Source: Sarcocystis neurona (Eukaryota; Apicomplexa; Conoidasida; Eucoccidiorida; Sarcocystidae). From it: a stretch of DNA of 64,000 nucleotides. The stretch is taken from the NCBI GenBank assembly GCA_000727475.1, contig KL647296.1, positions 3,392,784 through 3,456,783 on the forward strand. The letters are read 5' to 3'. This document shows, in pieces, positions 14,479 through 53,157 of this stretch. The notes beneath the pieces were generated by a model. That model saw only the letters and a list, made by a program, of their open reading frames with translations. It was not told the origin of the DNA and did no database searches. Each line of letters starts with the position of its first letter. Within the stretch, counting starts at the first letter, position 1. Made by a program: the position numbers and the translations under genes.

Positions 14479-17400
14479 ATGACAAGACAGATGACCAGCG
14501 GTGGCTGCAGCAGCAGCAATTTTTCCAGGAGGAAGAAGACCACAAGCAGCAAAATGTTCCTCCGCGGCACCATCGGCAGCAACTGCATCAACGGCACCGC
14601 TAAAGGCGGCGACAGCAGCACCTACAGGAGCAGCTGGAGAAGAAGCAGGCAACAGCCGCACAGGAGCAGCAACAGCAGCAGCGACACCAGCAGCGACAGC
14701 AGCAGCAACCGCAGTAGCAACAGCAGCAGCGGCAATCACAGCGGCAACCACAGCAGCAACCACAGCAGCGACTGCAGCAGCGACAGCAGTAGCAGCAGCA
14801 GCAGTGCCAGTGAAACTCATGTTGGTGTTAGCAAAAGACGCAGCAGGAGCAGGGAGGATACACAGGAGATTATATCTGCCGTTGATGCATGCAGTCGCAG
14901 CAGGACCAGCAGTGTCGACTGCACTGCTGCATCTCGAGTGGCCCCTCGTAAATTTGCTGCTGCTGTTGCTGCTGCTGCTTCTTCTGCCGCTTCCTCTTCT
15001 CCCGCTTCTTCTTCTCCGCCAGCTGCTACTGGTGCTTCTTCTTCCGTTTCTCGTGCTGCTGCTAGCGGTCCTGCGTCTGCTGCGACTTCTTCTCCTGATG
15101 CGTCGCAGCAGCTGCTGCGGCCTGCGGCAGCAAAGGCTGTCGAACGGGTGCTGCTCCAGCCGCTGCTATTGCTGCAGCAGCAGCAGGAAGCAGAGGCAGC
15201 AGCGCTGCATTTGTTTTGCCGCCGCACAGCACGAGCTGAAGCCGCGCTGGTGGATCTGTTGCAGCGCGCGCCACTCCTTCAGCAGCAGCGGCATCGCCCG
15301 TCGCAGCTGCTCGAACAGCAGTTCACCACCTCCCCACAAGAGCAGCAGCAGCAACATCCGCAAGAGCAGCAGCTGGTGCAGCTGCTGCAGCGAACGGGTG
15401 AGTCGCAGCAGCAGCGTCACCGCGACCACCGGCGGCAGCAGCCTTCCGGGCAGAAACCGTGGAGAGAACAACAACAGCAACACGAGAGAAATAAAAGGGA
15501 AGGGCCGCAGCAGCGGAAGAAGCAGGGTGTAGTTAGCAGCCCTGCAGAACTGCTCGACGGCTGCTCTCTGCTGCATCAGCAGCAGCGCCTTGCCGTCGTC
15601 CCCGCTCGAAAAGACCGCCCTGCGGTCTGTGCCGCCTTTGCTGGGGGGCGGCCGCCTCATCAGCAGCACGCTTGCTGCCCGCGTGATGAAGATGAAGCAG
15701 CAGCAGGAAGAGCAGCAAATGCAGCAAGAGCAGCAGCGACAGATGCAGCAGCAAAAAGAGCAGCAGCGGCAGATGCAGCAGCAACAAGAGCAGCAGCGGC
15801 AGATGCAGCAGCAACAAGAGCAGCAGCGGCAGATGCAGCAGCAACAAGAGCAGCAGCGGCAGATGCAGCAGCAGGAACGCGAGGACGAGGACCGGAGGAC
15901 GCACCAGAGGCAGATGGGAAAACGGCAGCAGCAGGCGGCTTCTGGACATCTACGGCTGCTTCCCCTTGCACGAGGGCGCTGCCCGACAGCAGCAGCAGCA
16001 GCAGCGAAGGCGACTGCCTTTGTGCTTCAGTAGCAGCGGCAACGGCGGCAGCACAGCGTGCGGACTTCCAGAAGCAGCAGCAAGACGGGCAGCAGCAACA
16101 GGAGCAGCAGCAGCAGCAGCGAAGGTGTTCCTCAGTGGCGGTCTCAGCGTCAACAGAAGAGGCGCATGCACTGACGCCGCGGCCTCAGCAGCAGCTGTCC
16201 AGCTGCAGCAGCAACGGCGGCAGCAGGATCAGCAGCAGGTACGCAGCAGAAGTAATAGAAGAAGAAGCAGAGCGCCAGCAGTTGATGGAGGGACGTCTGA
16301 AGCAGCTGCTGGAGCGAGTGCTGCTGCAGCACAAGCGCGCGCACGTATTTTTTGCGACAGCGGCAGAGCGGCTGCAGCAGGTGCAGGAGGAGATTGAGCA
16401 GCAGAGACGGCAGCAGCAACACCTTTCTTTACAGGCTTTTCCCCTGCTGCTGCAGCAGAGCAGCGGAAACGAACCCTCAGGACGCGTAGCAGCAGCGCGG
16501 CAAGCCGTGGACGTGCTGCCTCGTCCTTTTCCTGCTGCAGCTCTTCGAGCGGCATGCGCAGGCGCAGCAGCGGCGGCAGAAGAAGAAGCAGCAGCAGGAG
16601 GAAGTGCGAGAAAAGGAAGAAGAACAGCTTCAGCAGCCGAATCCTCAGCAGCAGGAACTACGGCAGCAGGAGATGCAGCAGCAGGCTTAAGAGTAGCGGC
16701 AGAAAGAGAGAGACAAGGAACAGCAGCAGAAGAAGCGTTCACGGTGGACGGAAAGAACAGGGAGAAGAGAAAATTACGAAGGGGAGTGACTTATCGTAGT
16801 GCTGCTTTTTTTCTAGCAGAGCTGCAGCACTCGCTTGACACGCGCGTTATCTGCGTAGCAGCGCATATACGTGCTGGTGTCCTGCGGTCGCTCAGCAGCT
16901 GCTTGCGGGCGCACTGCTACACGCTGGAGCAGCAGCAGCAGTGGAATGCAGAGGAGACGCCGAAGGAGCAGCAGCAGCAGGTGGAACTGCAGCGGCGGCA
17001 GCAGGAGGCAGAGGACGAGCGGCAGCAGCGCGCGTTCTCCAGCAGCGGCTGCTGCAGGAGAAACAGCAGCAGGAGCAGCAGCAGCAGGAACAGCAGCGAA
17101 GGCGGGGGGGCGTGCTTAAGCAGCAGAACAGGAAGAGAGGAGAAAGAAGTTGAGGAAGCGCTCAGCAGCGACAGCGGGACGGCGCTTGCTTTTTCAAGGC
17201 AGAAGCAGCAACAGCAGCACTTCGTCCGACCCCCGCACATACAGAAAGCCTCTGCTGCTGCTGCTGCCACTCCTGCTGCTGCTGCCACCACTGCTGCTGC
17301 TAGTGACACTCCTGCTACTGCTGGTGACACTGCTGCTGCTGGTGACACTGCTGCTGTCAGTGGCGACGTAGTCGGCCGGGCTGCAGCAACAGCAGCAGAA

Positions 17401-20089: not shown

Positions 20090-23000
20090 GTAAATACGTG
20101 GAGAATATATCTTTCTTTGGTATCCATCTTCTCTCTCTGTTCTCCGTTCATATGTATTGAAGTGTTTATGTCATCGTCTCTCCTTCTCTCTCTCTTTTCA
20201 TATACATATATATATCTGCCCCTACATCCATATCCCTGTCTCTCTATCACTCTCTATATATTGTCTATATTATATATATAACATAGTCCTCGCTGCAGAT
20301 ATATATATAATATTTTTGTGTCTTTGTGTGTGTATTTGTCTGCTATTGTGAATATACGTATCTTGCTTTCTGTCTCTCCGTCTCTGTCCGTTTCTCTTCC
20401 CCTATTTATACATCACCCCTTCTACTACATTTCTTCATATGTGCATATATATGCCTGTCTCTCTCTCTCTGTCTATACATATATCTATATATATGTGTAC
20501 ATGTATGTACATATTATATCCATCGTTAGGGGCATATATGTATGTATGTAAATGTATTTCTAAGTAGAATATTTGTATCTCTTCCCTTCTCTCTCCCCCT
20601 CTGTCTCCCTCCCTGTCTCCCTGTCTCCCTCCCTCTGTCTCCGTCTCCCTGTCTCCCTCCCTCTGTCTCCGTCTCCCTGTCTCCCCCTCTGTCTCCGTCT
20701 CCCTGTCTCCCTCCCTCTGTCTCCGTCTCCCTGTCTCCCCCTCTGTCTCCGTCTCCCTGTCTCCCCCTCTGTCTCCCCTGTCTCTGTCTCCCTCCCTGTC
20801 TCCCTCTGTTTTCCCCTCCCCGTCTCCCCGTCTCTCCGTGTGTGTTGTCTCCTCCGTCTCCTTCCCTGTGTAGAGCAGCTGCCTCTCTCTCGCCGCCCCC
20901 ATTTCCTCATGTGTCTCTCTCTCCATACGTGTATATACCCCAATTGACGAAGACGTATATACCTACACATAAATACATACACCCAGCTATCTATTTATAC
21001 ATATATACGTACACCTGTAGAGAGTAGGACACATACATATATATATCTATGTATCTATAGAGATATATATAGATATATAGGTACACACATATATATATGT
21101 GTAGAGAGAGACAGAAACAAAGACGTATACGCGTAGGTATTTACATAGAAACATACATACATATATGTATATATGTATTGATATGTACGTATATATATAT
21201 ATAGGTATCGAGAGAGTATAGGGGTACATGTTTACGTAGATGTATGTGTATGTGAGCATAGAGAGAAAGACGTGTATATATAAAGAGACTGAAGAGATGG
21301 AGAGACACGCGTGCAAACTGCAGAGACGGAGAGAGAAGAAATGTGGGGAAAAGCAGTTCCTGTTTTGTGAAGGAAGTGACGACACTTTTTCTCCTCTTCT
21401 TCCTCGTCAGCACTCCTTGCGCGGAGTCGTCTTGCTGCAGAAGCTGCTGCATGCGTCGGGCCTGCTCTTATTCGTCAGTCTTTCCTTCCTATTCTTCGGG
21501 TGTTGTACTCCCTCTATACACCTACGTACACACATATATGCTCGCGCTTGCATGTGCGGGTCCCGCGTCTGTCTATGTATTGATAGATAGATACTATGTG
21601 CTTGCGCCTGCACGCATGCGGGTAATATATATATGTTTCCATATTGCATGCATGTGCGCGCATGCAGGCGTGTGGGTATCTGCGTGTATGTGCGCGCATG
21701 CATCTTGAGAAGTTTCGTTTAAGAGAGTATTTGAAGCGCCTGCTTTCTTCTCAAGTAGAGAGCGCAAGACCGTCGCGTCTCTTCTTCCGCCATGCATGCG
21801 CCCGTTTTTGCCCGCCGTGGATACGCGCAGCCAGCATGCGACACCTCTCTCCCGAAGGTACACCCGTATCAAGAAAGGGAGAAGCAAAAAGGAGGGACAA
21901 GGAGGGAAATGCACGGGGGCAGAAAATAGACGGAGACACAAAAAAAGGGGAAGGGAGACGGAGACATGGAGACACAGAGAGAGACACGGAGACAGGGTGG
22001 GAAAGGGAGACACAGCGCGAAAAAGGGAGGGAGACGGGGCAATAGAAAAGGAGACACGGAGATATTTAGGAGGAAAAGGGAGAAATGAGGGGAAGAGACA
22101 GCGGGCGGAAGTCTGTCGTGTTGTCTTGGCTTCGTTTGGTCTTCTCTTATTCACTTTTCCTCTCTGCGTGAGAGACGTCGTCGTGCTTCCTGTGCTGCTG
22201 CTGTTGCTGCTGCAGCCTCGCGGTGGTGGCTGCCCCTGGTGCGGCGTGTGGCTGCCGAAAGAGAAGATCACGCGGAGACGCCTTCCTCGTCTTCCACTTC
22301 TTTCGTGTCTGCCTTTTCTTCTTCTCCTCCTCTCCGTTTTTGCTCCTCTTCGCCTCCCGCTTTGCTTCTGCCTTCCCGCTTCGAAGCAGGGACTAGCAGA
22401 GACGGTGCTGCTGCTGCTGCGCGGGCGTGCCCGTGTCGCCCTCCACCGTGGCAACAGCAGCAGCAGCGGGAGAGACGGAGAAGCAGAAGCAGCAGCAGCG
22501 GCAGGAGACGTAGTAGCAACGGCGCAGATGAGAAAGACGCGGAGGAGAGACGCAAGGACAGAGAAAGGAAGGTAAATGGGGAGGAAGAAGAGAACGAGGA
22601 AGCAAAGGAAGAAGAAGTCACCCAGGCTCGCAGCAGCACCAGCAGCAAACATGCGTGGGCGGACGCAGCTGCGGCGGAGAACTTCTGCTGCAGCAGTGAC
22701 AGCGTCATTTTCTTCGACTGCAGCAACAGCAGCAGCGGCAGCAGCAGGTGTGACAGCAGCCACAGCGGCAGCAGCGGCAGACGGCGAAGGAGGAAGAGCT
22801 GCAACAGCAGCAGCAACAGCAGCAGCAGCAGCCGCAGACGGACAAGAAGGAGAAGGAGCTGCATCAACAGCAGCAGCAACAGCAGCAGCAGTAATCGCAG
22901 CCGTGGAATTAAGAAGAGCAACAAAAAGAGCAGCAGCAGGAGCAGCGTCTTGAGTAGTCCCAGCTCGAGCAGCAGCAGCAACGGCGACGCAGCGGTGGCG

Positions 23001-26000
23001 TTGCCGGTGCTCCGGTGGTCAGACTGCAGTTTGTTATTATTTGACCGCGGGACGTGCTGCAGCGGCAGCTCTTCTGCTCATGCAACAGCAGCAGCAGCAG
23101 AAGCACCGACAGCGTGTGTACCAGCAGCACCAACAGAAGATTTACCAGCAGCAGGAAAGCAGCTAAAAGAAGAAGAAGAAGCTGCAACAGCAGGACGAGG
23201 AAGAAAAGAAGCAGTATTTTGTGAAGGAGGGCGGGGAGGTAGCAGAGCACAGGCTGCAACAGCAGCAGTGGAAGCGGCAGTGGGAACTGCAGCAGATGAT
23301 TTCGCCGGAAGAAGAACGAGGGCAGCAACAGCAGCAAAAGGAGGACGAGATGCGGCAGCTGATGAAGGAGCAAACGGCGGAGCAGCAGCAGTGTCCGAAG
23401 CAGATATAACGCCAGTGCCGGAAGAAGAAGACGAAGAAGAAGAAGACGAAGAAGAAGACGAAGAAGAAGAAGAAACAGCAGCAACCACAGGAAGAGAGAG
23501 AGACAGAGCAGCTGCAGCAGGTGCTGTTGCTTTTGGGGGAAGACGACTCCACGGACAAAAACGTGAAGAACAGCAGCAGCAGCAGCGACAGGAGCAGCAG
23601 CAGCAGGAGGAGGAGGAGGAGCAGCAGCCGGAGGAGGAGCAGCAGGAGCAGCAGCAGCAGCCGGAGGAGCAGCAGCAGCAGGAGGAGGAGCAGCAGGAGG
23701 AGGAGGGGCGAGAGAAACAGCAACAGCGACCGCAGCAGCGATTTCTGTGGAGGAGATTGTCGAGCAGCAGCCAGGCGAGAGCAGCAGCAAAGAGAGAAGC
23801 AGCCGCAGCAGCAAAAGCGAAGGTGGAGAACGAAGAAGCGAGAGACGGAAGCAGACGCGAAGCAAGTCGCTCGGCCGGTGCGGCTGCACCACGTCCAGCA
23901 GCAACGCCGTCGTCTTTCGCTTCCTCCTTTTCCTCGGCTGCAGCGGCGATGAAGGAAGCAGCAGCAGCAGCATTCCGCAGAGACGAGTCACTCGGCAGAG
24001 GAGGGAAACACGAGGCCCGGAGAAGAACGAAAAACTGCAAAGTTCAGATCTCTCTTCTTCCTCCACCACCTGCTCCTGCTGCTGCTGCGGCGTCGACCGC
24101 TTCCTCTCCGGCTGCTATAGCTGCTGCCTCTTGTTCTGCTGCTGCTGCTGTGCCTGGTCCGGCGTCTGCTGCGTCGAGTGCTTGCTCTCCCGCTGCTATA
24201 GCTACTGCCTCACGTTCTGCTGCTGCTGCTGCGTTGGGCGCTGCTTCCTCTCCCGCTGCTGGAGCTGCTGCCTCGTGTTCTGCTGCTGCCGCTCCTGCTG
24301 CTGCTGCGGCGGTGGCTGTTTTCTCTACGGTTGCCGCTGCGGCGGTGGCTGCTTCCTCTCCCGCTGCTGCTGCTGCAGCGTCTTCTTCGTTTTCTGCTGC
24401 CGATGCTCCTGCGGCTGCTCTGCGAGGGAGAAGAGGAGGACAGCGCTCGCGCAGCGAAGGTTTTTTTCGATCTAAGTTGGGGCGCAGCAGAGAGGCACCG
24501 CTTGCTGGCCGGCGTCCCTTCAGCAGCAGCAGCAACAGCAGCGACAGCAGCAGCAGCGTTAGCAGCAGCAGCTCCTGCAATACCAGCAGCAACAGCAGCA
24601 ATATGATCAGCAGCACCAGCAATAATATCACCAGCAGCAGCAGCAGTATCAGCAGCAGCAGCTGCTGGCCCAGTTCCTTGTTGCTACATCAGCAACAGCA
24701 CTCTTCTCTTTCGCAGGTCAACGGACAGTCTCCCTCACTTTTCCTGTTCTTCACCACGCATATATATATATGCATGTCTATGTATACCCGTCTATCGACC
24801 TATCTCTCTCTCTCTCTATATATATACATATATATATTTACACAGACGCTCACGCATATATATATATACATACATACGTTTCCATATATATATGTATAAA
24901 TAGATAGGTGGATAGATAAATCTGTCCACACACAGGTATATATACGTACCTATCGCCGCAATAGATATGTGGATCTTGACATATATATATAAAGGTATTA
25001 CGATCCTATCTTTTGTTTATCTGTGTACATGCATGTGCTTTTCTCTGTCCGTCTCTCTACAGACTTTTTCTTATTATATGAATATGTACGTTTGCATGCG
25101 TGCCTACGTCTCAATCTGTCTCTCTGTGGTGGCTGGACCCTCATCTGTATCATACATATATATATATATATTTGTACGTCTCTGTGCCTGTATATATATA
25201 TTTGTAAGTATACGCATATGCAGGGTTTCGTCACTTGATACGTAATCACATATTTCTGTGCGCCTACGTGCATGCGTGTCTGTTTCTTTTTCTCTCTCTC
25301 TCTCTCTATATGTGTATATACAATATATATATATCTATGTATATATGTAAATGCATGCATATACGTTGCCCTGTCAATTAAAAACATTGCCATATATGTG
25401 TATATATTTATGATAGGCTTATACAAATATAAATATATATATTATACGTCTATATACACGCAATATATATAAATGATGTGAAGAGAGGTGCGCTGATTAG
25501 CACTTTCAACAGGGAGGAAGGAATTTGAATAACTTCGCGGTCCTGTCCACATTAATATATATCCATACATGCACGTATCTCTCTCTCTACATACACATAT
25601 ATATACAGGTTTGCATGTGAATATGTCTCTCTTTAATGTGTGTATGTGTATATATATAGAAACGCGAACAGACGGGCAACGAGACAGCCAGACAGCCAGC
25701 CAGAGACAGGGAGACAGGGAGACAGGGAGACGGGGAGACGGGGAGACGGAGAAGTACCTCTTCTTAAGAATTTATATCAATATACGCATGATGAGGCGGA
25801 CACGTCTACACACACAGAAATGGAGATATTTGTCGTTTTGTGTGGTAGTGATGGTAGTTCGTACGTATTTGTGTTTGTGTACCGCCTGCGTCTCCGCCCG
25901 GGTATGTGATGCACGTGGACGTGTCGAGGACGAAGTGTACGTGTGTGGGTGGTCAGAGCCGCCGCATGCAGTTTGTTCGGCTGTCTGAACACGCCGTGGT

Positions 26001-39071: not shown

Positions 39072-39107
<36 letters not shown>

Positions 39108-42100: not shown

Positions 42101-45100
42101 ATATATATATATAGACAGATATACACAGACACATACATATGTATATATATATGTGTCTGTAGGTAGATATGTACATGTTTGTAGCGGGTGCTTCATTTTG
42201 CGGCTTGTGCAGGCGACGGAGGCTGCTGCTCTCCCATCGGATCCTCGTGCGTTTGATCGCCTTGCTGCTGCTGCTGCTGTCGCTCTTTCTTCGACTTCTC
42301 CGCCGGTATCTGCTGCCTCTGGTGGCTCTTCTCCTCTTCTGTCTCCTCCTCCTGCCGCTGCTGGTGGCGCGCTTCTGCCTGCAGCTGCTGCTTCGCGTCC
42401 TGCTGCTGCTGCTACCGCTGCAGCCGCTGCGTGTGAAGTTTCTTCGGAGCGTGGGCTGCCGCAGACTGGCGCAGGAGATCCTCCAGCCACAGGAGCAGAA
42501 GAAGGAGAAGAAGAAGAGGGGCGAGAAGGCAGAGCAGCAAGCAGCAGTGGGGTCTCGGGGAAGTTTGCATCTGCAAGGGACGGTTCTTCCTTTCTGATAA
42601 ACCGGAGAAGCTGTCACGCAGAAGCTGCAGCAGACGGAGACAGAAACGAAGCAGAAGAGGAGTCCAAAGAAGAAGGAGAACGAGAAGGAAAGGCAGCAAA
42701 TGGAGGAGATGATGGCCCCGGCTACAAAAAACTCAAAAATGTGAAGGCGGGCTTCCGCGTAAATTTGTCCCTCTGTCAACTCGTCAAAATTCTCTTCCTC
42801 GATATCAATTCTCCCTACAACCCCTTCCTCAGGCACGTCCTCCATACATGTCCACACACGTGTGCATATGTGTGTGTATATATATTTATATATTTATATA
42901 TTAAATATACGTGGATATATTTGGTCTTTATATGTTCTCCTCATACAGTCCTTTCCTTAGGTGCTTCATCTATCTATCCTTCCACCTATCCATATCTATG
43001 TACATACGTGCATATATATATGATAGAAACAAATATATCATTCCTTGATATTAGTTCTCTCTAGAGTGCTCTCCTCAGAAACGTATATGTGTGTGTATAT
43101 ATATGTATATATGTGCATATATATGTATATATGTGTATATATATGTATATATGTGTATATATATGTATATATGTGTATATATATGTATATATGTGTATAT
43201 ATATGTATATATTGTATATGTATAGATATATATATATATATCCCTGCTACCAGGTGCTGTCTGTAGAATTCTTTCTTCTCTGGCATGCATTTCCCGCATA
43301 TATTTATATACGTGTGCGTCTCGTATATGTATTTGTTTATTATACAACTCGATTTAATAGCTAGGCTGCGCCTATTCGTCTCTGATACATGTATACTTGG
43401 ATACAAACAAATAGATATACGTATATGTGTATGGGGAGGGGCGGGGGGGGGGGGGGGGCAAAGCCATAGAGACGACGGGAAGTATCACGTCTCTCTATCT
43501 ATCGATTCCTCTATATACCATATACTATCAAATACATATATATTATGTGTATACTGTATATTCTTACATATATATGCATGTGTATAAGTACTACAAAATA
43601 TATCTCTATATACATATATTTACGATATACTATCAAATATACATACACACATATATATATATATATGTATGTATACGTACATACAAATGTATGTGTATAC
43701 TGTACACTATAGAATAGATATATGTATATAAATGTATGTGTATACTGTACACTATAGAATAGATATATATGTATGGATATGTTGTATGCTATGAAACGTA
43801 TATATTGTGTACTGCTACATACATATATGTATACTGTACACTATAGAATAGGTAGATGTATATAAATGTGTGTGTATACTGTACACTATAGAATAGACAT
43901 ATATGTATGGATATGTTGTATGCTATGCTATTGTGTACTGCCACATACATATATGTATATGCATGTATTTGTTAGAAGATTGGTGGACAGTGTGATGTGA
44001 CTTTCGGTGTGTATAAGGCGAAGTGTCTACTTTTAGTTGTTGGAGGATGCGCGTCAGCAAAGGGGCGTCCATGTGCGTGTCTCCGTCTCCGTGTGTGTCT
44101 CCCTCGCTTTCGCTGCCTGGCCGCAGACTTCCGCGCCTCCTCGCTTTGCGTCTCCTCCTCACTTCGTCTGTGTGTCTCCAGCAGGACACAATGTAGCCTT
44201 TTCATTGCATACAACGTATCCGTACATGTATATATGTCTATTCTAGAGTGTACAGTATACGCATGCATTTGTAGGTACGTGTGTCTATGTATGTGTGTAT
44301 GTGCCTGCTGCTGCAGAGCAGGAGGCAGTCGTCTTTCCTCTGTCTCTGTGTCGCTCTGTGTGGACGTGCCTGTGTGTACGTATATACACAAAATTCTTGT
44401 ACAAGTTCCACGTCCTACGTGGTGGTGGTGTTTGTTTATATGTGCCCCGCTGCAGGAGCATGCAAGAAGTCGACGCATATCCCGGCCCGCCGTTCCCGCC
44501 GTGGGAACCGCCGCTTCTGCCACACGCGATCGGCTGCAGCAGCAACACGTGTCTCCTCTGCCGCTGCTGCAGCCAGTCCTACTCGAGGAGCAGCAGCAGT
44601 GACAGCAGCAGCAGTGACAGCAGCAGCAGCGGCAGCAGCAAAGAGACGAGCAGTGGCAGTGAGAGCAGAAGAGGAAGGAGCGGCGCAAGGCTAGGAAGCA
44701 CAGGTGCTGCAGCAGCAAAGGAAGAAGAAGCTGTTGCGAGTGCGTCCCCCTCTTGTGTTGCTGGGGCTCTTGCTGGTGGCAGTGGGTCGTCTTCTTCTTC
44801 TTCTGTTGCTGCTGCTGCTGCTGCCTCGTTTTCTTCCCCGCCTGCGGGTGGAAACGAAGACGGAAGAAGCGGCGTGACTCTCCGCGCGCAGCTGCAGCAA
44901 CAGCAGCAGCTCCTGGCGCTGCTCGCCGTGAAGAGGCCGCGGAGGGCACTGCGCTACGAACTCAGCCGTAAGAAAGTGCCACTCTTTCGCAAGAAGAACT
45001 AAAAGAAGAACGTCGCGACTGTAGAGAGACAGAGACAACCACGCAGAATTCCTGCATGCTGCTGCCCTCCATTTTCTTCTCCGTCTCTTCTTCTGTCGCG

Positions 45101-48100
45101 TCTCTCCGTCATCCTCCCACTCCGTCTCTCTCCCCACAAAATTGGCACCTCTCCATACCCCGTTTTTCCTTGCTGTCTCTCTTTCTCCCTTCCTGTCTCT
45201 CGAACTCTCCCTTTCGCTCTCTCTCCCCGTCTCCCCCCCGAATCCGTCTCCCTGTCTNNNNNNNNNNNNNNNNNNNNNNNNNNNNNNNNNNNNNNNNNNN
45301 NNNNNNNNNNNNNNNNNNNNNNNNNNNNNNNNNNNNNNNNNNNNNNNNNNNNNNNNNNNNNNNNNNNNNNNNNNNNNNNNNNNNNNNNNNNNNNNNNNNN
45401 NNNNNNNNNNNNNNNNNNNNNNNNNNNNNNNNNNNNNNNNNNNNNNNNNNNNNNNNNNNNNNNNNNNNNNNNNNNNNNNNNNNNNNNNNNNNNNNNNNNN
45501 NNNNNNNNNNNNNNNNNNNNNNNNNNNNNNNNNNNNNNNNNNNNNNNNNNNNNNNNNNNNNNNNNNNNNNNNNNNNNNNNNNNNNNNNNNNNNNNNNNNN
45601 NNNNNNNNNNNNNNNNNNNNNNNNNNNNNNNNNNNNNNNNNNNNNNNNNNNNNNNNNNNNNNNNNNNNNNNNNNNNNNNNNNNNNNNNNNNNNNNNNNNN
45701 NNNNNNNNNNNNNNNNNNNNNNNNNNNNNNNNNNNNNNNNNNNNNNNNNNNNNNNNNNNNNNNNNNNNNNNNNNNNNNNNNNNNNNNNNNNNNNNNNNNN
45801 NNNNNNNNNNNNNNNNNNNNNNNNNNNNNNNNNNNNNNNNNNNNNNNNNNNNNNNNNNNNNNNNNNNNNNNNNNNNNNNNNNNNNNNNNNNNNNNNNNNN
45901 NNNNNNNNNNNNNNNNNNNNNNNNNNNNNNNNNNNNNNNNNNNNNNNNNNNNNNNNNNNNNNNNNNNNNNNNNNNNNNNNNNNNNNNNNNNNNNNNNNNN
46001 NNNNNNNNNNNNNNNNNNNNNNNNNNNNNNNNNNNNNNNNNNNNNNNNNNNNNNNNNNNNNNNNNNNNNNNNNNNNNNNNNNNNNNNNNNNNNNNNNNNN
46101 NNNNNNNNNNNNNNNNNNNNNNNNNNNNNNNNNNNNNNNNNNNNNNNNNNNNNNNNNNNNNNNNNNNNNNNNNNNNNNNNNNNNNNNNNNNNNNNNNNNN
46201 NNNCCCCCTCCCTGTCTCCATGTCTCCTTTGCCCTATTACTACTCCTCCCTGCCTCCCTTCCCCTATCATCCCCTCCGTCTCCCTGTCTCCCTTCTCCTA
46301 TTGTCCCGCTCCCTGTCTCCCTGTCTCCCTTCCCGTATCATCCCCCTCCCTGTCTCCTTTGCCGTATTATACCCCTCCGTGTCTGCAGGATTTGCGCCTC
46401 TTCTGTCCCGGTCTCCGTCTTTTGCTGCCTCTGTCTTCCTCCGTCATCCTCGCGCTCCTGTTGCTGCCTGCTTCGCTCCTGGCCCCCTCTTCCTGTGTCT
46501 CTCCGTATACACCTGAGCCCCCCCCTACCAACAAATGGGGGTCTCCCTCTCTTTTTAGCCACGCACCTGCATGCATATAAGCGACGCTTCGGCAGACGTA
46601 AAGGAGTGTGCGTCTCTCTGCTCCTGCTTTAAGCCGCTCAAAATGTGTCTTCTGCTGCTGTCCTTCTCGCCGTGCTGCTGCCCTCTGCTGCCCTCTGGCG
46701 GCGCATGTCCGTCTCTGCGGCACACGCCTTGCTGCGATGATGCACATTTGGTCTCCCTCTTTTTGTCTCCCCTCCTCCTTCGCTCGCCTCCTCCCTCCCG
46801 CAATATCATCTTTCTAGAAGTGATGGGTCCACCTCGTACTGCAAGTTGCGACCGCGTGTTCCCCACTTTGTTTTCCTCCTTTTCGACCTTCGCTTCGTGT
46901 CCCCACCTCCCTTCCTGCGCCGTTTTGTTGGCTTTTGGTTTGGGGTGACTGCGTGCGCTGCAGTGCCCATTCCACGTTTCAACGTGCTGCGCGTGCCGTC
47001 TCGAGCGCAGATCGAAGAAAAGTTTCTTCTCTTCTTCCTCTCCCCAACAGCTGTTGTGCTTCAGCGCGACTCGTCTCTCGTGGGCGTTCCTCTCAGCGAC
47101 TGCTTCTTCACACGAGCGCGCTTCCGCCTCACGCAGCTCCCTGCAGCAGCACCGCCCCAAGCAGCAGCAGCAGCCCCAGCAGCATCCGCGGCAGCAGCAG
47201 CGCCCGCAGCAGTGCCAGGCGCCGCACGGCTCTGTCTTCCCTCGCAGCAGCAGCAGGAAGGGCGCCGAAGTCCGCCTCTGCCGGGCAGCAGCAGGAACAG
47301 CAGCGGCACGAGCAGCAGCAGCAGTCTGGGGAGTGGTGCGGTGCCCCGCGCAACTGCTGCTGCCGTTGTGTCTCCTGGCGACGAAGAAGACGCTGCTGCA
47401 GCGCCTGCTGCGCCTGGAGCGGTGGGGGTTCTTCTTCCTCCTGCTGCTGCCGACGAGACTGCAGTCTTGGCTCGCAGCAGCAGCGGGAGGGGGGAGACGG
47501 ACCTCGCTGCTGTTGCTCATCACGAAGGAACAGAAGAAGCAGCGGGGCAGAACAAAGCCGGGGAGACTACCGAAAAAACAGCGGCAGCAACTGCAGCAGG
47601 ACGAATGTAGAGACGCAGCTCGACGTGGAATATGAAATCGTCTTTCTCAAGCGATCGCTCGTGCAGGTGAGCAGCAGCACCTGAGCTGTCCCCACCGCTT
47701 CCTTTATCTTCGCTATTATCTTCTCCTTCGTTTCCTCCCCCCCTCTCCTTCCCCCTTCTCTCCATAAGTTTTATTCCTTCGTCTCCTGGCGCCGGTCTCC
47801 CCTGCTACTGCGGGTTCTCCCTTGCTGCCGTGGCGCCGCTACTGCTGCTGGCGTCACTCCTGCTGCTGGTCCTCCTCCTCCTCCGCCGGCGCAGTAAAAT
47901 CGACAAAGTGAAGGAGAACAGGAAAGACGGGGAGGCGTCCTGGCCAGAGTTTTTGCGCCAGCTGACGCTCTTTTCGAAAAAAGGGAAGAAGAAGGGAAAG
48001 CAGATGTCAACGCGCAACACCGGTGTCCCCACGCACAAAAGAAAGAGGCACAGCAGCAGGGAAAAGGAAAATAAAGAAGAGGAGTGCGGCACCACTCTTC

Positions 48101-51100
48101 TGTTGTTGCTCTTACGAACAGTAGAGCGCAAGAGATGAAAAATTATAACATCTGTGTGTGTACACCAGCCCAGCTCCCCGCCTTCCTGCAGCCTTCAGCA
48201 GCTCGCTACGCCTTCTGAAACGGTCGCGGCGCGGACGGCCCCTGCGCCTGGGCGTACCGCCGGCGTCGCGTTCCGGCTCTCTTGCTTTATTTGCAGGCAT
48301 TTCCCGACCCTCCCATATACTACGCAATTGCTTTCCTCCTGTTAAAGGCGGAGGGAGCAGTGCTACGCTCCTCCTGCCACTGGCGGCGCTGCAGTAGTGC
48401 TGCTGCTGCTGCTATCGCTGCTTCTGTTGCCGTTGCTGCTTCTGTTACTGTTATTGCTTCTGTTGCTGCTGCTGCTGCTTCTGGTGCTGCTGCTGTCTCT
48501 GGTGCTGCTGCTGCCTCTGTTGCTGCTGTTGCCTCTGTTGCTGCTGCTCCCGCTGTTGCTGCTGCTGCTTCTGTCGTTGCTGCTGTTGCTTCTTCTGTTG
48601 CTGCTGCTGCTTCTGTTGTTGCTGCTGTTGCTTCTTCTGTTGCTGCTGCTGCTTCTGTCGCTCCTGCTGCTGCTTCTGTCGCTGCTGCTGCTGCTTCTGT
48701 CGCCGCTGCGACTTCTCCTTTGCAGCTGGTGCTACTGCGTCTACGAAATTGACGTTGGCCCCGTCGACATCACCGCTGCTGCCACTGCCGGTTCTGCTGC
48801 ATCCGCTGCTGCTGTTGCTCGTCCGTCGCTGCTACCCTTGCTTCTGCTGCTGCTGCTGCCCTGCCTGCCGCCCACCTGCTGCTGCTCTTGCGGGCAGTAG
48901 AGCCTGTTGTCCATCTGCTGCTGCAGCTGCCGCTGGTCCCTGTGAGAATCTGCTCCACCACCACCTGCTGCTGCTGCTACATGTATGTGTATGTGTGCCG
49001 CCGTTGAACTGCCCTCAGGGAAAAATTACAGCGCAAGCAGAGTCGCAAGTCCTTGCTTCGCTGGAGCAGTTTTTTGACTTTAGTAAAGAGGCGCTGCAGC
49101 ATGCAGTTGAGCAGCGAGAGCAGGAGAAGGAGCGGCGACAGCAGCAACTGCTGCGTCAGTCCACGAGTCGTTCTTCGCCTTCCTGGGCTGCTGCTGATGA
49201 TGCGCGCGATGCTGCTGCAGATGTTGCAGCGAGGACGTCGCCTGCAGGAGGCGCAGCAGCGCCAGCAACTGCTGCGGCACCAGCAGAAACAGAGGCAGCA
49301 GCAGCAGACACAGAAGCACCTCCGAGGGAAGGGGGAGCAGCAGCGGCAGCAGAGATGCACCGGAGTGGCGCGCCGCTGCACGAAGCCAGGGAGAGGAAAG
49401 AAAGGGTGTCCAGACGGACCCCGCAGCAACAGGCAAGCAGCAGCAACAGCAGCAGAGCCTCGGCAGTGCGGTCCTTGCGTTAAGGCGACGCACCGCAGCA
49501 TAGACTGCAGCACCGTCCGGTGTCCCGACTCTAACTTGTGTACAAATGACTGCATGCGCGCGCTATCTCTCTCCTCCTTCCCCACGTATTCGTATGAGGA
49601 TCGCCGTGTCCTCCTCTGCCCACGTCTCTCTCTCTTCCTATACATATTTATACATATACATATACATATACATATATATATATGGACATGGGCGCGCATG
49701 CATCCCTGTACCGATTTCGACTGAGAGACAGCGACTCTCTCCTACGTGCATCACTTTAAAATTTTTGTTCGCTTCGATCCACCCAATATATATATATATA
49801 TATGTGTGTTGTAAGTGTAGCGAAGACATATATATGGATTTATACACGTCTTGCACATGTATCTAGAGTGAATATATATATATATATATATACATTTGTG
49901 TTGAATAGACACATTCAGGAAAGATATATATGTATACACGTGGTGCACAGGGTTTTCAACGATATATATATATATATATATGTATGTGTATACGTGTTTC
50001 TTCGTGTCCAGGCCCCGTAGTGGACAGAGGACCTGTCCAGTTGCAGCGCCGCGTCTGCATTGCGATTGCGTGCTGCTTTATCGACTGCTGCTGCTTGAAG
50101 AGCTGCTGCTGGTGGGAGTGCTTCTGCTGCAGCTGCTTGAAGAGCTGCTGCTGATGGGAGTGCCCCTGGTGCTGCTGCTTTAAGAAACGCTGCTGGTGGG
50201 AGTGCTGCTGCTGCTGAAGAGCTGCTGCTGGTGGGACTGCTCTTGCAGCTGCTGCTGCTGCTCTAAGGGCTGCTGCTGGTGGGCGTGCTGCAGCTGCTCC
50301 CGTAAGGGCTGCTGCTGGTGGCCGTGCTTCTGCTCCTGCTGCTCTCTAAAAACTGCTGGTGGTGGAAACGCTGCTACTGCTACTGCTCGAAGAGCCGCTG
50401 CTACGGGGATTGCAGCTGCTCCTGCTGGCCCAAGGGCTGTGATCGGTGGAAATGCTGCTGCCGCTGGTCACACGGCTGTTATTTGAGCAGCTGCTGCTGC
50501 GGCGTTTGGCTGCTCAGTCTCCCGCGCTGTTGCCGCTCTGCTGTCTTTCGCAACGCTGCGTTGCTGCTGTGATTTGGCTGCTGCTGCTGCTGCGATTTTG
50601 CTGCTGCTGCTGCTGCGAGTTTGCTGCCGCTGCGACTTTGCTGCTGTTGCTGTTGCTGTGTTGCAGCTGCGACTCTGATGCTGTCATTTTGCTGCTGGTG
50701 TGGGATGTGGCTGACGCTGTGCTGCTGCTGCTTCTGCAGAGGTGGGGATGGCGCTGCCGTCGGCGTTTTTTCTGCGGCCGACCCGAAGTAGCATCGGGCG
50801 TGGGGGAGGCGATAGCATCTGCTGCTGCTGCGGCTCTGCGCCGTGCTGCAGCGGGGTTTGCGGAAGGAGAGCGCAGAGCGCTTGTGTGGCTGCTGTCTGC
50901 CACTTCCACTACGAGTCTGCTGCTGCCGGCTTCCTCGCAGACACTTCTTACGCGAGTACCGCTGCAGCTTCTGCAGCTCCTGCAGCTGCTTCTTCCTGCA
51001 TCTCTGCGTGAAGGTCAGAGGCTCCTTTCTTCTTCTCTGTCCTGCTGCGGTTGGGCTGCGGCTTCTGCTGCTTCCGCCGTCGCTTCTTCGCTGCTGCAGC

Positions 51101-53157
51101 TGCTTTCCCCTCTCTGGGTCGCTGTTGCTGCTGTGTAATACTCCTTCGTGCCGGGTCACCGCCGTTTTCGCCGTCGCGCTGCTGTCGCCCCTCCCCCTGT
51201 TTCTGCTGCTCCTCCGCCGTCGCGCGGTCCTGCTGGTGGTGCGACGACGGCTGTCCTCCTCGTCCTCGTGCTGCTGCTGCTTGTGAACCACGTCTGTGCG
51301 GTGGTGTGGGGGCACTGCTGCTGCTGCGGTGTCGTGGAAGTGCTGTTGCTGCTGCCGTTGCGCGATGTTGCCTGACTGCTGCTCCTGCTGCTGTTTTGTT
51401 GAAGAAGAAGCCGCGCTTCTGCTGCTCCTGCTGCTGCTGCGGCTGGTGCTCCTGCTGCTGTTGGTACCTCAGCCGCACCCGGCAGCAGCAGCTGCTGCCG
51501 TTACGATGAGAATCCTCCGAGCAGCTGCGGCAACGGCGTCTGCTGCTGTGCTTCTCCCGAGAAATGCACCTGCCGCTTCTGGTGTGGAGAAGGGGGTGGG
51601 AAAACTGCCTCACTGCTGCGGCTGCTGCAGACGCGCGCTCCTGGCTGCTGCTGCTGCTGCTGTACCCGGGGGAACCGACGGCTGCCTCTTAGTCTGTGGC
51701 TGATCTTCTGCCTCAAGCGTCTTCCCTGCTGCTACTCTCCCACCTCCTCCTTCTGCTGCAACGGCTGCTGCTGCCACGATGTGGCTTCATTCTCTCTCGT
51801 TTCCCTCGCCTCCTGCTCACTTGGCTCCTGCTCACTTGGCTCCTGCTCCTGCTGCTTCCCCGACTGCTGCTACTGCTCAGCTGCGTTTGCGGCTGCTCCT
51901 GCTGCTCTTGCGGCTCCACCTGCTGCTGCACTTCCTGCAACATCTTCCTCACGTCAATCGTTGGGCGTCATTTTCGGCCGGGTTCCACGCTGCAGGACCC
52001 TGCGGGTGCTGCTGCTGCTGTTCGTATCTATATCTGTCTGTCTATATCTGCCTGTACCTATTTGTATCTGTCTATCTCCATAATTATCTGTATCCGTCCC
52101 TCCCTATATACCTGTCTATATCAATCTATATCTGTCTATATGCATATCTATATACACCTCTCTAAGTCTGCATCTATTTGTATATCTACATGATAGTGTA
52201 TGTGTCTCTGTTTCTGAATATTTGTATCAACTTGTGTAGCCCTTCACGCATGCATATATGTGTGTGTTGCACCGGAGAGCTGCTGCTGGGAGAGCTCTGG
52301 CGTGCGCTGCTGCTGCTGCTGTTGCTGCTGCTGTCGTCGTGAAGGCAGGTGATCATTAATAGGAGAAGATACAGGAAGGAAATGAATCTCGACGGTGATA
52401 TATGTTTTCCTCTGCGTACAAATAATTTGTAGATGTACGTATTAACTTCCCTCATCCCTATGGAAGTCCACAAATATGTCCCTCTGCAGTTCTCTCTCCG
52501 TATATATATGTACGTACTTCTGTATACGTATGTATGTGTATGGGGAGAGAGAGAAGAGAAAGACAGAGGGATATAACACGCATTTATATGTCATACATAG
52601 AGAGTTGTGGTAGATAAATCTCTGCGCGTGAAGTTGCATATATATATATATATGTATATATGTGTATGTATGTGTGTTCATGTGTATGTATATGTGTTTC
52701 TATATATGTATATATACATGTGTAAAGTGAGCTGTGGGTGCATACGAATAAAAATATAAATATATATATGTTTGTCCGTGTATGTTTCTATTGCATACAT
52801 ATATGTATATGTGTCTTTGCAGATACGTAGATATAGGTATATATTCCCCTGCACGTATATATATAGATGGTAGCTGCCTATGTATGAACTATGTGGGTGG
52901 CTTTGCTATTTTCAGCTGGCTCGTTCCTTTCGCTGCTGTTGGCTGCTGCAGGCGCATTGGTGGCGCTTCTGCTGCTGCTGCTGGGTTATACGCTGCGCAT
53001 GCACGCGCGGCTGAATAGTCTCGAAGGTAGCCTCGCAGCGCAGCAGCAGCAGCTGGCGACGCAGCAGCAGCAGCTCCTACGGGAGCAGCAGCAGCAACAC
53101 GTGGCGCTGATGCAGGAGCAGCCCCTTGCTGCGCTGGACCGCTACAGTCTTCGCTAA
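14479..53157 (+). CDS. Giant GRAM-VASt membrane protein (LAM/Aster type), possibly with BAR-PH N-terminus
   Basis: An intron-split gene whose exons encode, in order, BAR-like helices, a PH-like C-terminal helix, a GRAM domain, a VASt (StART-like) domain and a C-terminal membrane helix. Proposed exons: 14479-20089, 22216-24716, 26016-26335, 27832-27898, 29604-29719, 31879-31975, 39004-39063, 41446-41709, 42213-42832, 44456-44967, 46964 to about 47666 (one unresolved internal break), 49019 to about 49480, 52916-53157. Known members of this family sit in the ER at contact sites, sense the partner membrane with GRAM and carry sterol with VASt. Apicomplexans do not make sterols, so a role in distributing scavenged host sterol is an inference. 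Phases match at every junction from 20089 to 46964. The 14479 start and the end of the penultimate exon are unsure. The protein would have 3,000-3,900 residues, mostly low-complexity insertions; family members elsewhere are usually about 600-1,400. Confidence 0.7.
15711..15875 (+). repeat. 30-bp tandem repeat inside the long exon, open in two frames
   Basis: About five copies of a 30-bp unit (CAGATGCAGCAGCAACAAGA plus GCAGCAGCGG). In the long-ORF frame it encodes the decapeptide [10 protein letters not shown]; in the next frame it encodes [10 protein letters not shown]. Both are uninterrupted. A 30-bp unit keeps either frame. Confidence 0.85.
20090..22215. other. Intron with CT-rich minisatellite and TA microsatellites
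   Basis: Runs from GTAAAT (20,090) to CTGCTGCAG (22,215). It holds TATATG tracts (20,195-20,300, 20,440-20,520, 20,990-21,240), a CTCCCTGTCTCC array at 20,580-20,830, and the opposite orientation (GGGAGACGGAGACA) at 21,945-22,070. No credible exon inside, although some C/T-rich frames are open for more than 100 codons. Confidence 0.55.
22216..24716 (+). CDS. Exon: PH-like helix then long acidic/Gln/Ala low-complexity linker
   Basis: Starts after TGCTGCTGCAG and, with the single base from 20089, reads [20 protein letters not shown], which fits a PH-domain C-terminal helix with its conserved Trp. It then stays open for about 830 codons. Recognisable parts are a Ser/Arg-rich stretch, an acidic run following [11 protein letters not shown] (about 23,400-23,475), a Gln/Glu block (about 23,560-23,730), the charged segment around [12 protein letters not shown] (about 23,740) and long Ala runs (24,070-24,400). 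The donor is CAG|GTCAAC at 24,716, phase 0, matching the next exon. An internal donor-like AAG|GTAAAT at 22,571 is also in phase 0, so a shorter form is possible. I infer it is the linker between PH and GRAM. Confidence 0.5.
23412..23480 (+). repeat. GAAGAAGAC repeat encoding an acidic run
   Basis: Tandem GAAGAAGAC/GAAGAAGAA units give a Glu/Asp run of about 20 residues in the exon frame. It is preceded by the non-repetitive SEADITPVP, which supports this frame as the coding one. Confidence 0.8.
24717..26015. other. Intron, TA-rich with a GACAGGGAGACGG tract
   Basis: TATATG microsatellites fill 24,755-24,900, 25,140-25,200 and 25,310-25,470. A purine-rich CAGGGAGACGGGGAGACGG array lies at 25,675-25,755. 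The acceptor AG (26,014-26,015) overlaps a near copy of the GGTGTACGTACACC palindrome. Confidence 0.55.
26016..26335 (+). CDS. Exon: acidic/Ala linker running into the GRAM start
   Basis: Reads [14 protein letters not shown], then a charged and Ala-rich stretch, and ends [12 protein letters not shown] plus two bases at [21 protein letters not shown] sits immediately before the GRAM core, as a leading helix does in GRAM-VASt proteins. The two leftover bases (AG) plus the first base of the next exon (A) give Arg, an exact phase match. The frame only opens at 25,989, so the AG at 26,014-26,015 is the only workable acceptor, although its upstream tract is not pyrimidine-rich. The end of this exon is secure; its start is less so. 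Confidence 0.75.
26336..27831. other. Intron, TA/CA microsatellite-rich
   Basis: Almost entirely TATATG and CACATA microsatellite (26,520-26,810, 26,870-26,930, 27,000-27,430), then a C/T-rich approach ending TGCTGCTGCTGCAG at 27,831. No gene on either strand. Confidence 0.7.
27832..27898 (+). CDS. Exon: GRAM domain, first strand
   Basis: A 67-bp exon between TGCTGCAG and CAA|GTAATT. With the carried-over AG it encodes R then [20 protein letters not shown] and LQ. The pattern of acidic residue, hydrophobic pair, then SCAL followed by a hydrophobic LLQ is the start of the GRAM fold, where the family has variants of 'E.L...YSCAL....LLQG'. It leaves in phase 0, and the next exon opens with the GRL that completes the LQGRLY signature. 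It would be missed by ORF-length gene calling. Confidence 0.92.
27899..29603. other. Intron containing three palindrome copies
   Basis: CTG-rich and C/T-rich sequence (27,900-28,230), TATATG microsatellites (28,300-28,680, 28,990-29,180), a CCGTGTCTCCCTGTCTCC tract (29,365-29,410), and three copies of GGTGTACGTACACC or a one-mismatch form (29,271, 29,465, 29,561). Acceptor TACCTCCAG at 29,603. Confidence 0.65.
29604..29719 (+). CDS. Exon: GRAM domain, central strands
   Basis: Encodes [20 protein letters not shown], then [18 protein letters not shown] plus two bases. This is the diagnostic GRAM core: '[13 protein letters not shown]' followed by a Phe-Gly-x-Glu-Thr turn and the 'LP..EIVAI' strand, closely parallel to plant VAD1-like and animal GRAMD1 domains. 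It starts in phase 0 after CCTCCAG and ends CG|GTAACA. The CG is completed by C from the next exon to give Arg. The Asn-Glu-Thr-Thr before Leu-Phe-Gly is a short insertion relative to most family members. Confidence 0.95.
29720..31878. other. Intron, C/T-rich and TA-rich
   Basis: TATATG microsatellites (29,985-30,190, 31,090-31,560) surround a CTCCCCTTCCCTGTCTCCCT minisatellite at 30,590-30,930. Acceptor GACGCATGCAG at 31,878. Long C/T-rich ORFs here are composition artefacts. Confidence 0.65.
31879..31975 (+). CDS. Exon: GRAM domain, last strands
   Basis: Begins with the base that completes Arg, then encodes [20 protein letters not shown] and [12 protein letters not shown], ending AAG|GTAATC in phase 0. 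This is the second half of the GRAM fold: the '[11 protein letters not shown]' strand, a Gly-Gly turn, and the '[10 protein letters not shown]' strand that precedes the closing helix. The joined sequence [20 protein letters not shown] has no gap relative to the family. Two downstream segments can supply the final helix in phase, at 39,004 (preferred) and 35,125. Confidence 0.95.
35125..35178 (+). CDS. Candidate alternative exon for the GRAM closing helix
   Basis: After ATGTGCAG (AG at 35,123-35,124) the phase-0 frame reads [18 protein letters not shown], a plausible amphipathic helix that could follow LLNRDK just as the 39,004 exon does. CAA|GTTGTT at 35,178 is a weak donor in phase 0; otherwise the frame runs on into Ser/Asn repeats. 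It shares the Ile-Phe position with the preferred exon but lacks the Trp usual in this helix. It may be a mutually exclusive exon, a decayed duplicate, or chance. Confidence 0.3.
35872..38961 (+). CDS. About 1,030-codon Gln-rich ORF within the GRAM intron; status uncertain
   Basis: A frame open from ATG 35,872 to 38,961. The first 240 codons are a convincing charged coiled coil (for example [20 protein letters not shown] and [14 protein letters not shown]). Later parts are Ala-rich or pure poly-Gln. From about 37.2 kb neighbouring frames look equally protein-like ([14 protein letters not shown] near 37,682; [16 protein letters not shown] near 37,799; [16 protein letters not shown] near 38,170; [20 protein letters not shown] near 38,890), so either several small introns or random frame slippage is involved. 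It lies between the strand and helix exons of GRAM. Options are an in-domain insertion, an alternative transcript, a nested gene, or an intronic repeat that stayed open by composition. Confidence 0.3.
38431..38697 (+). repeat. Long CAG/CAA array (poly-Gln if translated)
   Basis: About 265 bp of CAGCAACAACAG units with few interruptions, encoding more than 70 Gln with occasional Glu in one frame. It is the longest near-pure trinucleotide tract in the window. The CAA/CAG mixture would slow slippage compared with pure CAG. Confidence 0.9.
39004..39063 (+). CDS. Exon: GRAM domain closing helix
   Basis: A 60-bp exon, GCTGCGATTGCAG|...GTC|GTAAGC, encoding [15 protein letters not shown] followed by MEQGV, phase 0 at both ends. 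Joined to 31975 it gives [18 protein letters not shown], the classic end of a GRAM domain ('RD.AY..I...W'). The reading frame matches the exon before and the one after. It is the best evidence that the 3-kb open region upstream is not constitutive exon. Confidence 0.88.
39064..41445. other. Intron with repeated TAGGCTGTGTTCCTCTC units
   Basis: CT-rich and TATATG sequence; a tandem array at 39,733-40,140 (separate entry); a CCCCGTGTCTCC tract (40,340-40,400); a 14-G run (40,603-40,616); then A/T-rich sequence to the TGTGTCTGCAG acceptor at 41,445. Confidence 0.65.
39733..40140. repeat. ~60-bp tandem repeat with TA-microsatellite core
   Basis: Seven or so units, each with GTAGGCTGTGTTCCTCTCTC then CATATATA runs of varying length. 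Starts are near 39,733, 39,792, 39,846, 39,911, 39,951, 40,021 and 40,125. Same design as the 8.8-kb array: a conserved non-TA block alternating with a variable TA core. Confidence 0.8.
41446..41709 (+). CDS. Exon: linker between GRAM and VASt
   Basis: An 88-codon exon with a clean acceptor (TGTGTCTGCAG) and a consensus donor (GAG|GTGCGT), phase 0 at both ends. It reads [20 protein letters not shown], then Gln and Ala runs, an acidic run, and [10 protein letters not shown]. The charged first part looks like ordinary protein; the rest is a flexible linker. Its phases match the GRAM helix exon before it and the VASt exon after it. Confidence 0.75.
42213..42832 (+). CDS. Exon: linker plus VASt domain start
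   Basis: Begins [17 protein letters not shown] after CGGCTTGTGCAG, continues as Ala- and Glu-rich linker, then enters the VASt fold: [33 protein letters not shown]. The family pattern is a basic strand, a helix beginning 'S..QL...LF', then Asp-x-x-(Ser/Pro)-Phe-Leu; this matches. The last two bases AG are followed by GCACGT rather than GT. Joined to the next exon they give [15 protein letters not shown], the expected continuation, so the donor appears to be a GC-AG type. The acceptor at 42,212 is plausible but less certain than the domain itself. Confidence 0.85.
43090..43215. repeat. 20-bp TA-rich tandem array
   Basis: Six near-identical units of TATATATATGTATATATGTG. Non-coding, inside an intron. 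Confidence 0.9.
43695..44260. repeat. Direct repeats plus a long inverted repeat
   Basis: The 23-bp element GTATACTGTACACTATAGAA TAG starts at 43,695, 43,740, 43,839 and 43,874. The last copy extends to TGTTGTATGCTATG (43,929), and its reverse complement, with several mismatches, is at 44,203-44,260. The arms are about 56 bp with a spacer near 270 bp, so transcript or single-stranded DNA could fold into a stem. Confidence 0.8.
44456..44967 (+). CDS. Exon: VASt domain, second part with a Ser/Ala insertion
   Basis: Starts with the base completing Arg, then [20 protein letters not shown]. The aromatic 'PWEP' corresponds to the conserved Trp segment after the first VASt helix. A roughly 110-residue Ser/Ala/Gln insertion follows, then the fold resumes with RRALRYELS plus one base at C|GTAAGA, a consensus donor. 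The C is completed by TG of the next exon to give Leu: [19 protein letters not shown], the 'R.L.Y..P' strand pair of VASt. A homopolymer insertion inside a loop of a folded domain is typical of Eimeria proteins. Confidence 0.88.
44968..46963. other. Intron containing the assembly gap
   Basis: CT-rich minisatellite (CCCTGTCTCCCT) flanks a run of N at 45,258-46,203 on both sides. Unique sequence resumes at about 46,400. Acceptor TGCGTGCGCTGCAG at 46,963. ORFs drawn through the N run have no meaning. Confidence 0.8.
45258..46203. other. Assembly gap (946 N)
   Basis: A run of N bounded on both sides by CTCCCTGTCTCC repeats. The gap was probably caused by that minisatellite; its true length is unknown. 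Confidence 0.99.
46964..47666 (+). CDS. Exon(s): VASt domain core
   Basis: Opens [20 protein letters not shown], then [19 protein letters not shown] and [20 protein letters not shown]. This is the centre of VASt: the 'VE..F.L' strand, then the conserved 'VP.SD.F' turn and the following strand. A long Ala/Ser/Gln insertion follows. The fold resumes at [18 protein letters not shown], ending CAG|GTGAGC at 47,666 in phase 0. The two ends are in different frames (first part stops at about 47,610; the last part uses another frame), so there is either one more small intron in the insertion or an assembly slip; I could not place it. Both ends fit VASt and join their neighbours in phase. Confidence 0.82.
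47667..49018. other. Intron with CTG array
   Basis: GTGAGC to TGCCCTCAG. Includes a CTG/CTGCTTCTGTTG array at 48,400-48,720, which reads as poly-Leu or poly-Ala. It is skipped because KRSLVQ joins perfectly to GKITAQAE across it. Confidence 0.7.
49019..49480 (+). CDS. Exon: end of VASt and start of the cytosolic linker
   Basis: After TGCCCTCAG, phase 0, reads [20 protein letters not shown] then [20 protein letters not shown] and Gln/Ala/Glu-rich sequence. Joined to the previous exon it gives [18 protein letters not shown], the last VASt strand and final helix ('FLK..W..G.I......SLE'). A stop follows at about 49,481, so the exon must end before it. The next exon needs a donor in phase 1, and none is clearly best, so the 3' limit shown is an upper bound. 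Further linker exons may exist in 50-52 kb. Confidence 0.82.
49481..52915. other. Intron(s) with extensive CTG repeat; linker exons possible
   Basis: TATATG tracts (49,640-49,685, 49,785-49,990, 52,640-52,860) surround imperfect CTG repeat from 50,080 to 51,930. A short unique segment after a good acceptor (TTCTTCGTGTCCAG, 50,008) reads [20 protein letters not shown] in one frame, and another at 51,940-52,000 contains [18 protein letters not shown]; neither can be fixed as an exon. Confidence 0.5.
52916..53157 (+). CDS. Last exon: C-terminal membrane helix and Gln-rich tail
   Basis: Acceptor GCTATTTTCAG, then CT completing a codon and [40 protein letters not shown], a Gln-rich coiled coil, ALDRYSLR and TAA at 53,155-53,157. 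A single hydrophobic helix of about 22 residues followed by a short charged tail is how LAM/Aster proteins are anchored in the ER after VASt. A basic cluster (RMHAR) flanks the helix. The tail's Gln repeats come from CAG expansion. That it belongs to this gene is inferred from order, strand and architecture, because the upstream donor was not found. Confidence 0.78.

Follow-up and report, generated by a model that had tools for sequence, protein, structure and literature searches.

Exon structure of the locus

The window (the whole 64,000-bp stretch of DNA analysed) very probably holds on its + strand a split gene with exons of about 50–650 bp, which begins at some point upstream of 26.3 kb and ends with a stop at 53157. 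Its exons are given below, together with two upstream open frames whose membership in the gene is tentative, and with the approach by which each was placed; P0001 to P0005 are related proteins described further on.

14479–20089, +, long open frame, initially annotated as BAR and PH (Pfam, phmmer against PDB, Markov resamples); membership in the gene tentative
22215–24600 (3′ limit approximate), +, open frame, initially annotated as the PH end plus a linker; membership in the gene tentative
26016–26335, +, exon with the GRAM start at its 3′ end, donor AG/GTAAAC, phase 2 (spliced alignment to P0002 and P0003, sequence view); 5′ limit tentative
27832–27898, +, GRAM exon 2 (spliced alignment, splice sites, tblastn with 74% to P0002)
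29604–29719, +, GRAM exon 3, with EIVAI (frame scan, spliced alignment, tblastn)
31879–31975, +, GRAM exon 4, with NRDK (spliced alignment, tblastn)
39004–39063, +, GRAM exon 5, the C-terminal helix with AYNFISAMW (spliced alignment, tblastn)
41446–41709, +, possible linker exon of low complexity (phase and splice sites only)
42213–42859, +, linker and VASt start (VASt part by Pfam join and spliced alignment; both limits by phase and site)
44456–44967, +, VASt exon in which low-complexity sequence separates PPWEP from RALRYELS (motif, phase, site; the spliced alignment to P0002 and P0003 covers only its RALRYELS end)
46964–47139, +, VASt exon (tblastn with 49–51% to P0001 and P0002, Pfam); 3′ end tentative, possibly extending into low complexity
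47613–47666, +, VASt exon (splice-site search, spliced alignment, tblastn); 5′ end tentative
49019–49480, +, last VASt exon and the linker after it (motif, spliced alignment, tblastn); 3′ end tentative
52916–53157, +, terminal exon with a hydrophobic helix, a Q-rich stretch and the stop (hydropathy, sequence); join to the preceding exon tentative

Phases match at all eight junctions of the model between 26335 and 46964. This agreement is partly by construction, the junctions 39063/41446, 41709/42213 and 42859/44456 having been picked by eye from phase and splice site; for the remaining five there is also support from spliced alignment to relatives. The phase agreement that the initial annotation had drawn from 20,089 to 46,964 was recovered from 26335 to 46964. 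No stop interrupts the exons when they are joined from 26019 to 47139, and their phases agree. Between 46964–47139 and 47613–47666 the frame changes, and the intervening stretch (47139–47613), which offers no good splice pair, may reflect a pseudogene or an assembly error.

Three further features of the DNA were observed. A run of 946 N lies at 45258–46203, inside the VASt intron 44968–46963. A Q/A-rich open frame of 1050 codons (35812–38961, +) is contained in the intron that separates GRAM exon 4 from exon 5; it is longer than any found in 300 Markov resamples of its region (maximum 802) and may be a nested exon, an alternative exon or an effect of repeats. CAG-type runs occupy 2442 of the 64,000 bp, as against 327–1053 bp in three 60-kb control blocks.

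Spliced alignment recovers the GRAM domain

To locate the GRAM exons we used a spliced-alignment program written for the purpose, which forbids stops, requires GT-AG introns and follows three phases. Run over the whole window with a profile built from three GRAM domains, it picked the exons at 27.8–39.06 kb (+) with no manual selection and a score of 85.0, compared to 33.9 on the opposite strand and 33.8–39.2 on the six strands of three 60-kb blocks from the same genome. Twenty first-order Markov resamples of the window gave a mean of 38.3 and a maximum of 51.1, ten permuted profiles reached at most 46.4, and the reversed profile scored 47.9 and 39.7 on the two strands. At its front, the whole-window alignment also took in a spurious piece at 8.6 kb, which disappeared when the search was limited to 20–42 kb or the intron cost was raised, the chain being otherwise the same.

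When joined, GRAM exons 2–5 gave a Pfam GRAM (PF02893) match of 62.3 bits (cut-off 23.6 bits; E 4.5e-17) that spans positions 12–108 of the 112 in the profile. The start of the domain was placed at 26301–26335, phase 2, by a profile of P0002 and P0003, with an uncontrolled score of 510 over 20–54.5 kb; this profile also took doubtful pieces at 42.2–42.4 and 44.1 kb. The full GRAM domain originally proposed from short exons is nearly full in exons 2–5, with its start in the exon ending at 26335.

Two earlier attempts at this region were set aside. Continuations of GRAM chosen by eye at 30.48 and 32.7 kb (22.8 bits) were wrong and were superseded by the spliced alignment; a phmmer search of PDB with this first continuation returned no match. 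A pattern search upstream of 27832 yielded four exon candidates, none of which was the 26335 donor that the later spliced alignment found.

An assembled VASt domain downstream of GRAM

The VASt domain lies downstream of GRAM, at 42.2–49.1 kb (+), its exons (42213–42859, 44456–44967, 46964–47139, 47613–47666 and 49019 onward) having been joined by motif, phase and site. Joins that omit the low-complexity sequence at 47.14–47.61 kb scored 31.8, 31.7 and 33.9 bits against Pfam VASt (cut-off 27 bits), these matches being limited to the second half of the domain (profile positions 74–150 to 78–150). A shortened join gave the sole match to nearly the whole profile (7–150), at 26.9 bits and thus just below the cut-off, and two further joins scored 25.0 and 14.2 bits, also below it, the latter being the one that keeps an actual GT-AG pair in 47139–47613. 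This spread arises partly because the frame changes in that stretch without a good splice pair. Taken alone, three VASt pieces (two of them two-exon joins) had no Pfam match, so the signal depends on joining. The initial annotation had described a full VASt domain and had tied its reading to a VASt profile match in the 42.2–49.5 kb exons; such a match exists in the best joins, at 31.7–33.9 bits for the second half, with the nearly whole domain falling just short.

Spliced alignment with a VASt-only profile of P0001–P0003 scored 175.4, compared to 82.0 on the other strand, 86.0–113.2 on six control strands and 72.7–93.5 with ten permuted profiles. In this alignment the first half of the domain was filled by scattered spurious pieces, and the reliable part is 46965–49102. 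Spliced alignment with profiles made from solved Aster/LAM VASt domains failed to single out the locus, two of three settings scoring no better than the opposite strand and the third choosing a wrong chain. Likewise, an HMM built from seven solved Aster/LAM VASt sequences gave the join only 8–9 bits, and phmmer found no match to the joined VASt in PDB.

Both domains, whose exons the initial annotation had described as invisible as ORFs, were largely missed by a frame-by-frame Pfam search. The three + frames of 28.5–38.4 kb showed just one weak GRAM trace (E 0.11), those of 40.5–50.4 kb showed no VASt, and low-complexity matches to TFIIA appeared across these regions. A domain carried in exons of 60–120 bp within CAG-repeat-rich DNA can thus nearly escape frame-by-frame Pfam, and spliced alignment recovers GRAM where that search leaves a trace of it and nothing of VASt.

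The terminal exon encodes a hydrophobic helix

In exon 52916–53157 a strongly hydrophobic helix, whose hydropathy reaches 2.83 over 19 residues, is followed by the Q-rich stretch and the stop at 53157, the very coordinate at which the initial annotation had ended its membrane-helix protein. We take this exon to be the probable C-terminal membrane helix of the GRAM-VASt protein, on the basis of its sequence and of a tentative join from 49.0–49.5 kb. Among P0001–P0005, no 19-residue window exceeds a hydropathy of 1.8, the most hydrophobic windows of P0001–P0003 lying at 1.58–1.76; the best window is close to the C-terminus in P0001, P0003 and P0005, whereas P0002 has it at 808–826 and P0004 at 238.

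Relatives carry GRAM and VASt in one protein

With the corrected GRAM as query, five proteins (P0001–P0005) were recovered from a protein database at E≤10 among 2172 candidates; two earlier searches with the wrong continuation had yielded none. By name, P0001 and P0002 derive from GHVS and P0003 from GHVQ (EukProt, TSA), which PMC7522995 gives as the Rhytidocystis sp. ex Travisia forbesii and R. pertsovi transcriptomes, respectively. The ciliate Blepharisma stoltei is the source of P0004, while that of P0005 is unnamed. All five carry GRAM and VASt over the Pfam cut-offs within one protein, and P0001–P0003 share 60–67% identity with the query across 34–35% of its length.

The relatives also match the unspliced window directly. 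In tblastn, P0001–P0005 hit the + strand in order at 27830–27898, 29592–29732, 31871–31978, 39001–39063, 46963–47139, 47601–47663 and 49019–49099, which bears out the order of GRAM before VASt. P0002 matches six of these seven places (E 2e-5, 3e-11, 6e-11, 0.003, 9e-10 and 0.60) and no protein matches all seven; the 49.0-kb piece was matched by P0001 alone, at E 3.2. Matches elsewhere in the window were at E 1.2 or worse.

Searched against the whole assembly from which the window comes (123 Mb, 74 contigs), P0002 gave four matches at E≤1 (nine candidates scored), all of them at these exons, and therefore no second copy was seen. Pfam searches of the same genome for VASt and GRAM gave zero matches by a method that is uninformative here, since in controls it found VASt in 0 of 14 genomes and GRAM in 1 of 14, below the cut-off. 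A candidate paralogue on contig C4 (L006) was discarded on inspection.

Two of the relatives' own features deserve description. P0001 contains two stretches of GRAM and, as judged by eye, a VASt-like repeat, a doubling that is either a tandem duplication or a chimeric transcript. P0004 and P0005 have a long N-terminus ahead of GRAM (residues 1 to ~540) that looks helical by eye, lacks any Pfam match above the cut-off and might adopt a BAR-like fold.

A candidate lipid-transfer protein

We regard the locus as very probably one + strand gene for a membrane-anchored GRAM-VASt protein that, by analogy, would act in lipid transfer of the GRAMD1/Aster/LAM type. The lipid-transfer identity proposed at the outset for the GRAM, VASt and membrane-helix exons is supported by Pfam, by the alignment controls and by the relatives' proteins, which match the exons in order. 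A single transcript would presumably join all exons. The best reading is a new member of a known family with an unusual and well-hidden gene architecture.

If the protein works as GRAMD1/Aster and LAM proteins do, its C-terminal helix would anchor it in the ER, its GRAM domain (a PH-superfamily fold) would recognise lipids on the apposed membrane, and its VASt pocket would carry across the contact site a lipid, of which sterol is the likeliest. Both the ER location and the action at contact sites are suggested by this analogy, from which sterol also appears the likely cargo. Apicomplexans obtain sterol from their host, and the protein may have a part in host-sterol scavenging. The intracellular distribution of sterol in apicomplexans has been little studied. 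A direct candidate for this task is a GRAM-VASt-TM gene of which no second copy was seen and which Rhytidocystis and a ciliate also possess.

The natural cargo of the VASt domain might instead be a non-sterol lipid (a phospholipid, ceramide or similar), the mechanism being otherwise the same. The distance of the apicomplexan and ciliate VASt domains from Aster speaks for such a cargo, the family profile matching the Aster and At5g50170 VASt chains at E 0.012–0.18. Against this, the StART-like domains of yeast Ysp2p and Lam4p bind sterols specifically (PMC4463742), and we consider a non-sterol cargo rather unlikely.

The upstream frames and the BAR-PH question

The initial annotation placed BAR helices in the 14.5–20.1 kb frame and a PH domain split over 20089/22215, which would make the product a full LAM1/Sip3-like BAR-PH-GRAM-VASt-TM protein. 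The 14479–20089 frame spans 1928 codons and is probably coding, because it is longer than any in 300 Markov resamples of 14.0–20.2 kb (100 at each of the orders 2, 4 and 5), which reached at most 736 codons. Furthermore, the phase-1 junction 20089/22215 is present in the sequence, joins in phase and yields a PH-helix-like string, and BAR and further PH domains are known in the yeast and human family (PMC4463742). However, the 1050-codon frame also exceeds its 300 resamples and sits inside an intron, so a long frame here is weak evidence of membership in the gene.

Searches for the domains themselves gave the proposal no support. Pfam named neither BAR nor PH in the N-terminal frames at E≤10, in a scan whose reach is limited by HMMER filters that remove most matches above ~0.1 and which, for PH, used a typed composite sequence. 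The region 16222–18480 (+), in which hydrophobic islands stand within the homopolymer-rich N-terminal frame, matched just a ribosomal protein in PDB by phmmer (E 0.042). A spliced search for PH reached 40.3 over the whole window and 26.3 over 14–30 kb, not above its controls (37.0 on the other strand, 36.9–43.8 on six control strands). In the relatives P0001–P0003, complete ORFs by name, Pfam likewise detected neither domain, and hhalign of a P0004/P0005 profile against 16222–18480 gave a probability of 0.1. The BAR searches are weakened by low-complexity sequence and weak profiles. An own-genome search with two N-terminal islands returned two strong matches, both of which fall on the window, together with 11 weak ones (best E 0.01).

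The Pfam check of the spliced translation that the initial annotation had called for places GRAM, and in the best joins VASt, over their cut-offs and names neither PH nor BAR. A BAR-PH front half is a guess, and we hold the full five-part protein to be unlikely. We likewise think it improbable that the product is a giant protein whose divergent, homopolymer-laden BAR-PH front precedes GRAM-VASt-TM, a LAM1/Sip3-like sterol carrier retained in an apicomplexan that would sense both membrane curvature and lipid. Decay of the gene into a pseudogene, or a division of GRAM and VASt between two genes, is highly improbable: the frame change without a good splice pair before 47613, a VASt match over cut-off in its second half only and the tentative helix-exon join would fit either, but the exons up to 47139 remain open with agreeing phases, and every relative found has both domains in one protein.

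Comparison with known GRAM-VASt proteins

We compared the probable membrane-anchored GRAM-VASt protein with described systems. VASt was defined in 2014, with GRAM-VASt proteins in ciliates and FCH-GRAM-VASt proteins in stramenopiles (PMC4082322); none of six terms for apicomplexans, alveolates and BAR appears in the main text of that paper. Among the literature matches listed, no title concerned a GRAM-VASt protein of Eimeria or Toxoplasma. The Rhytidocystis proteins P0001–P0003 resemble the protein in having GRAM and VASt within one chain, and differ in the two GRAM stretches of P0001 and in their weaker hydrophobic windows.

Human GRAMD1A-C/Aster proteins share the GRAM and VASt domains, and their solved VASt chains match the family profile weakly; they are distant, and in the present gene many introns and low-complexity inserts split both domains. 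In the yeast LAM/Ltc family (Ysp2, Lam4, Lam6; Sip3/Ysp1), whose members bind sterol and are located at ER-PM contacts (PMC4463742), the GRAM domain of LAM6 matches the family profile at E 5.9e-9. Here the differences are that Ysp2 has two VASt domains (PMC4463742) where one is seen in our gene, and that the yeast family's BAR and PH domains are not demonstrated at this locus.

One of the closest described systems is apicomplexan. PfGRAMD1 (PF3D7_0803600), reported in 2026 from P. falciparum, is a VASt-domain shuttle protein named by homology to human GRAMD1, and is described as lying in proximity to VAP and at the ER (PMC13036008). The same source ascribes other domains “(PH and GRAM)” to PfGRAMD1 and PfPITP in wording that is ambiguous as to which has PH, and it attributes the ER location of episomally expressed PfGRAMD1 to its TM domain. 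With PfGRAMD1 published, this kind of protein is already known, also in Apicomplexa.
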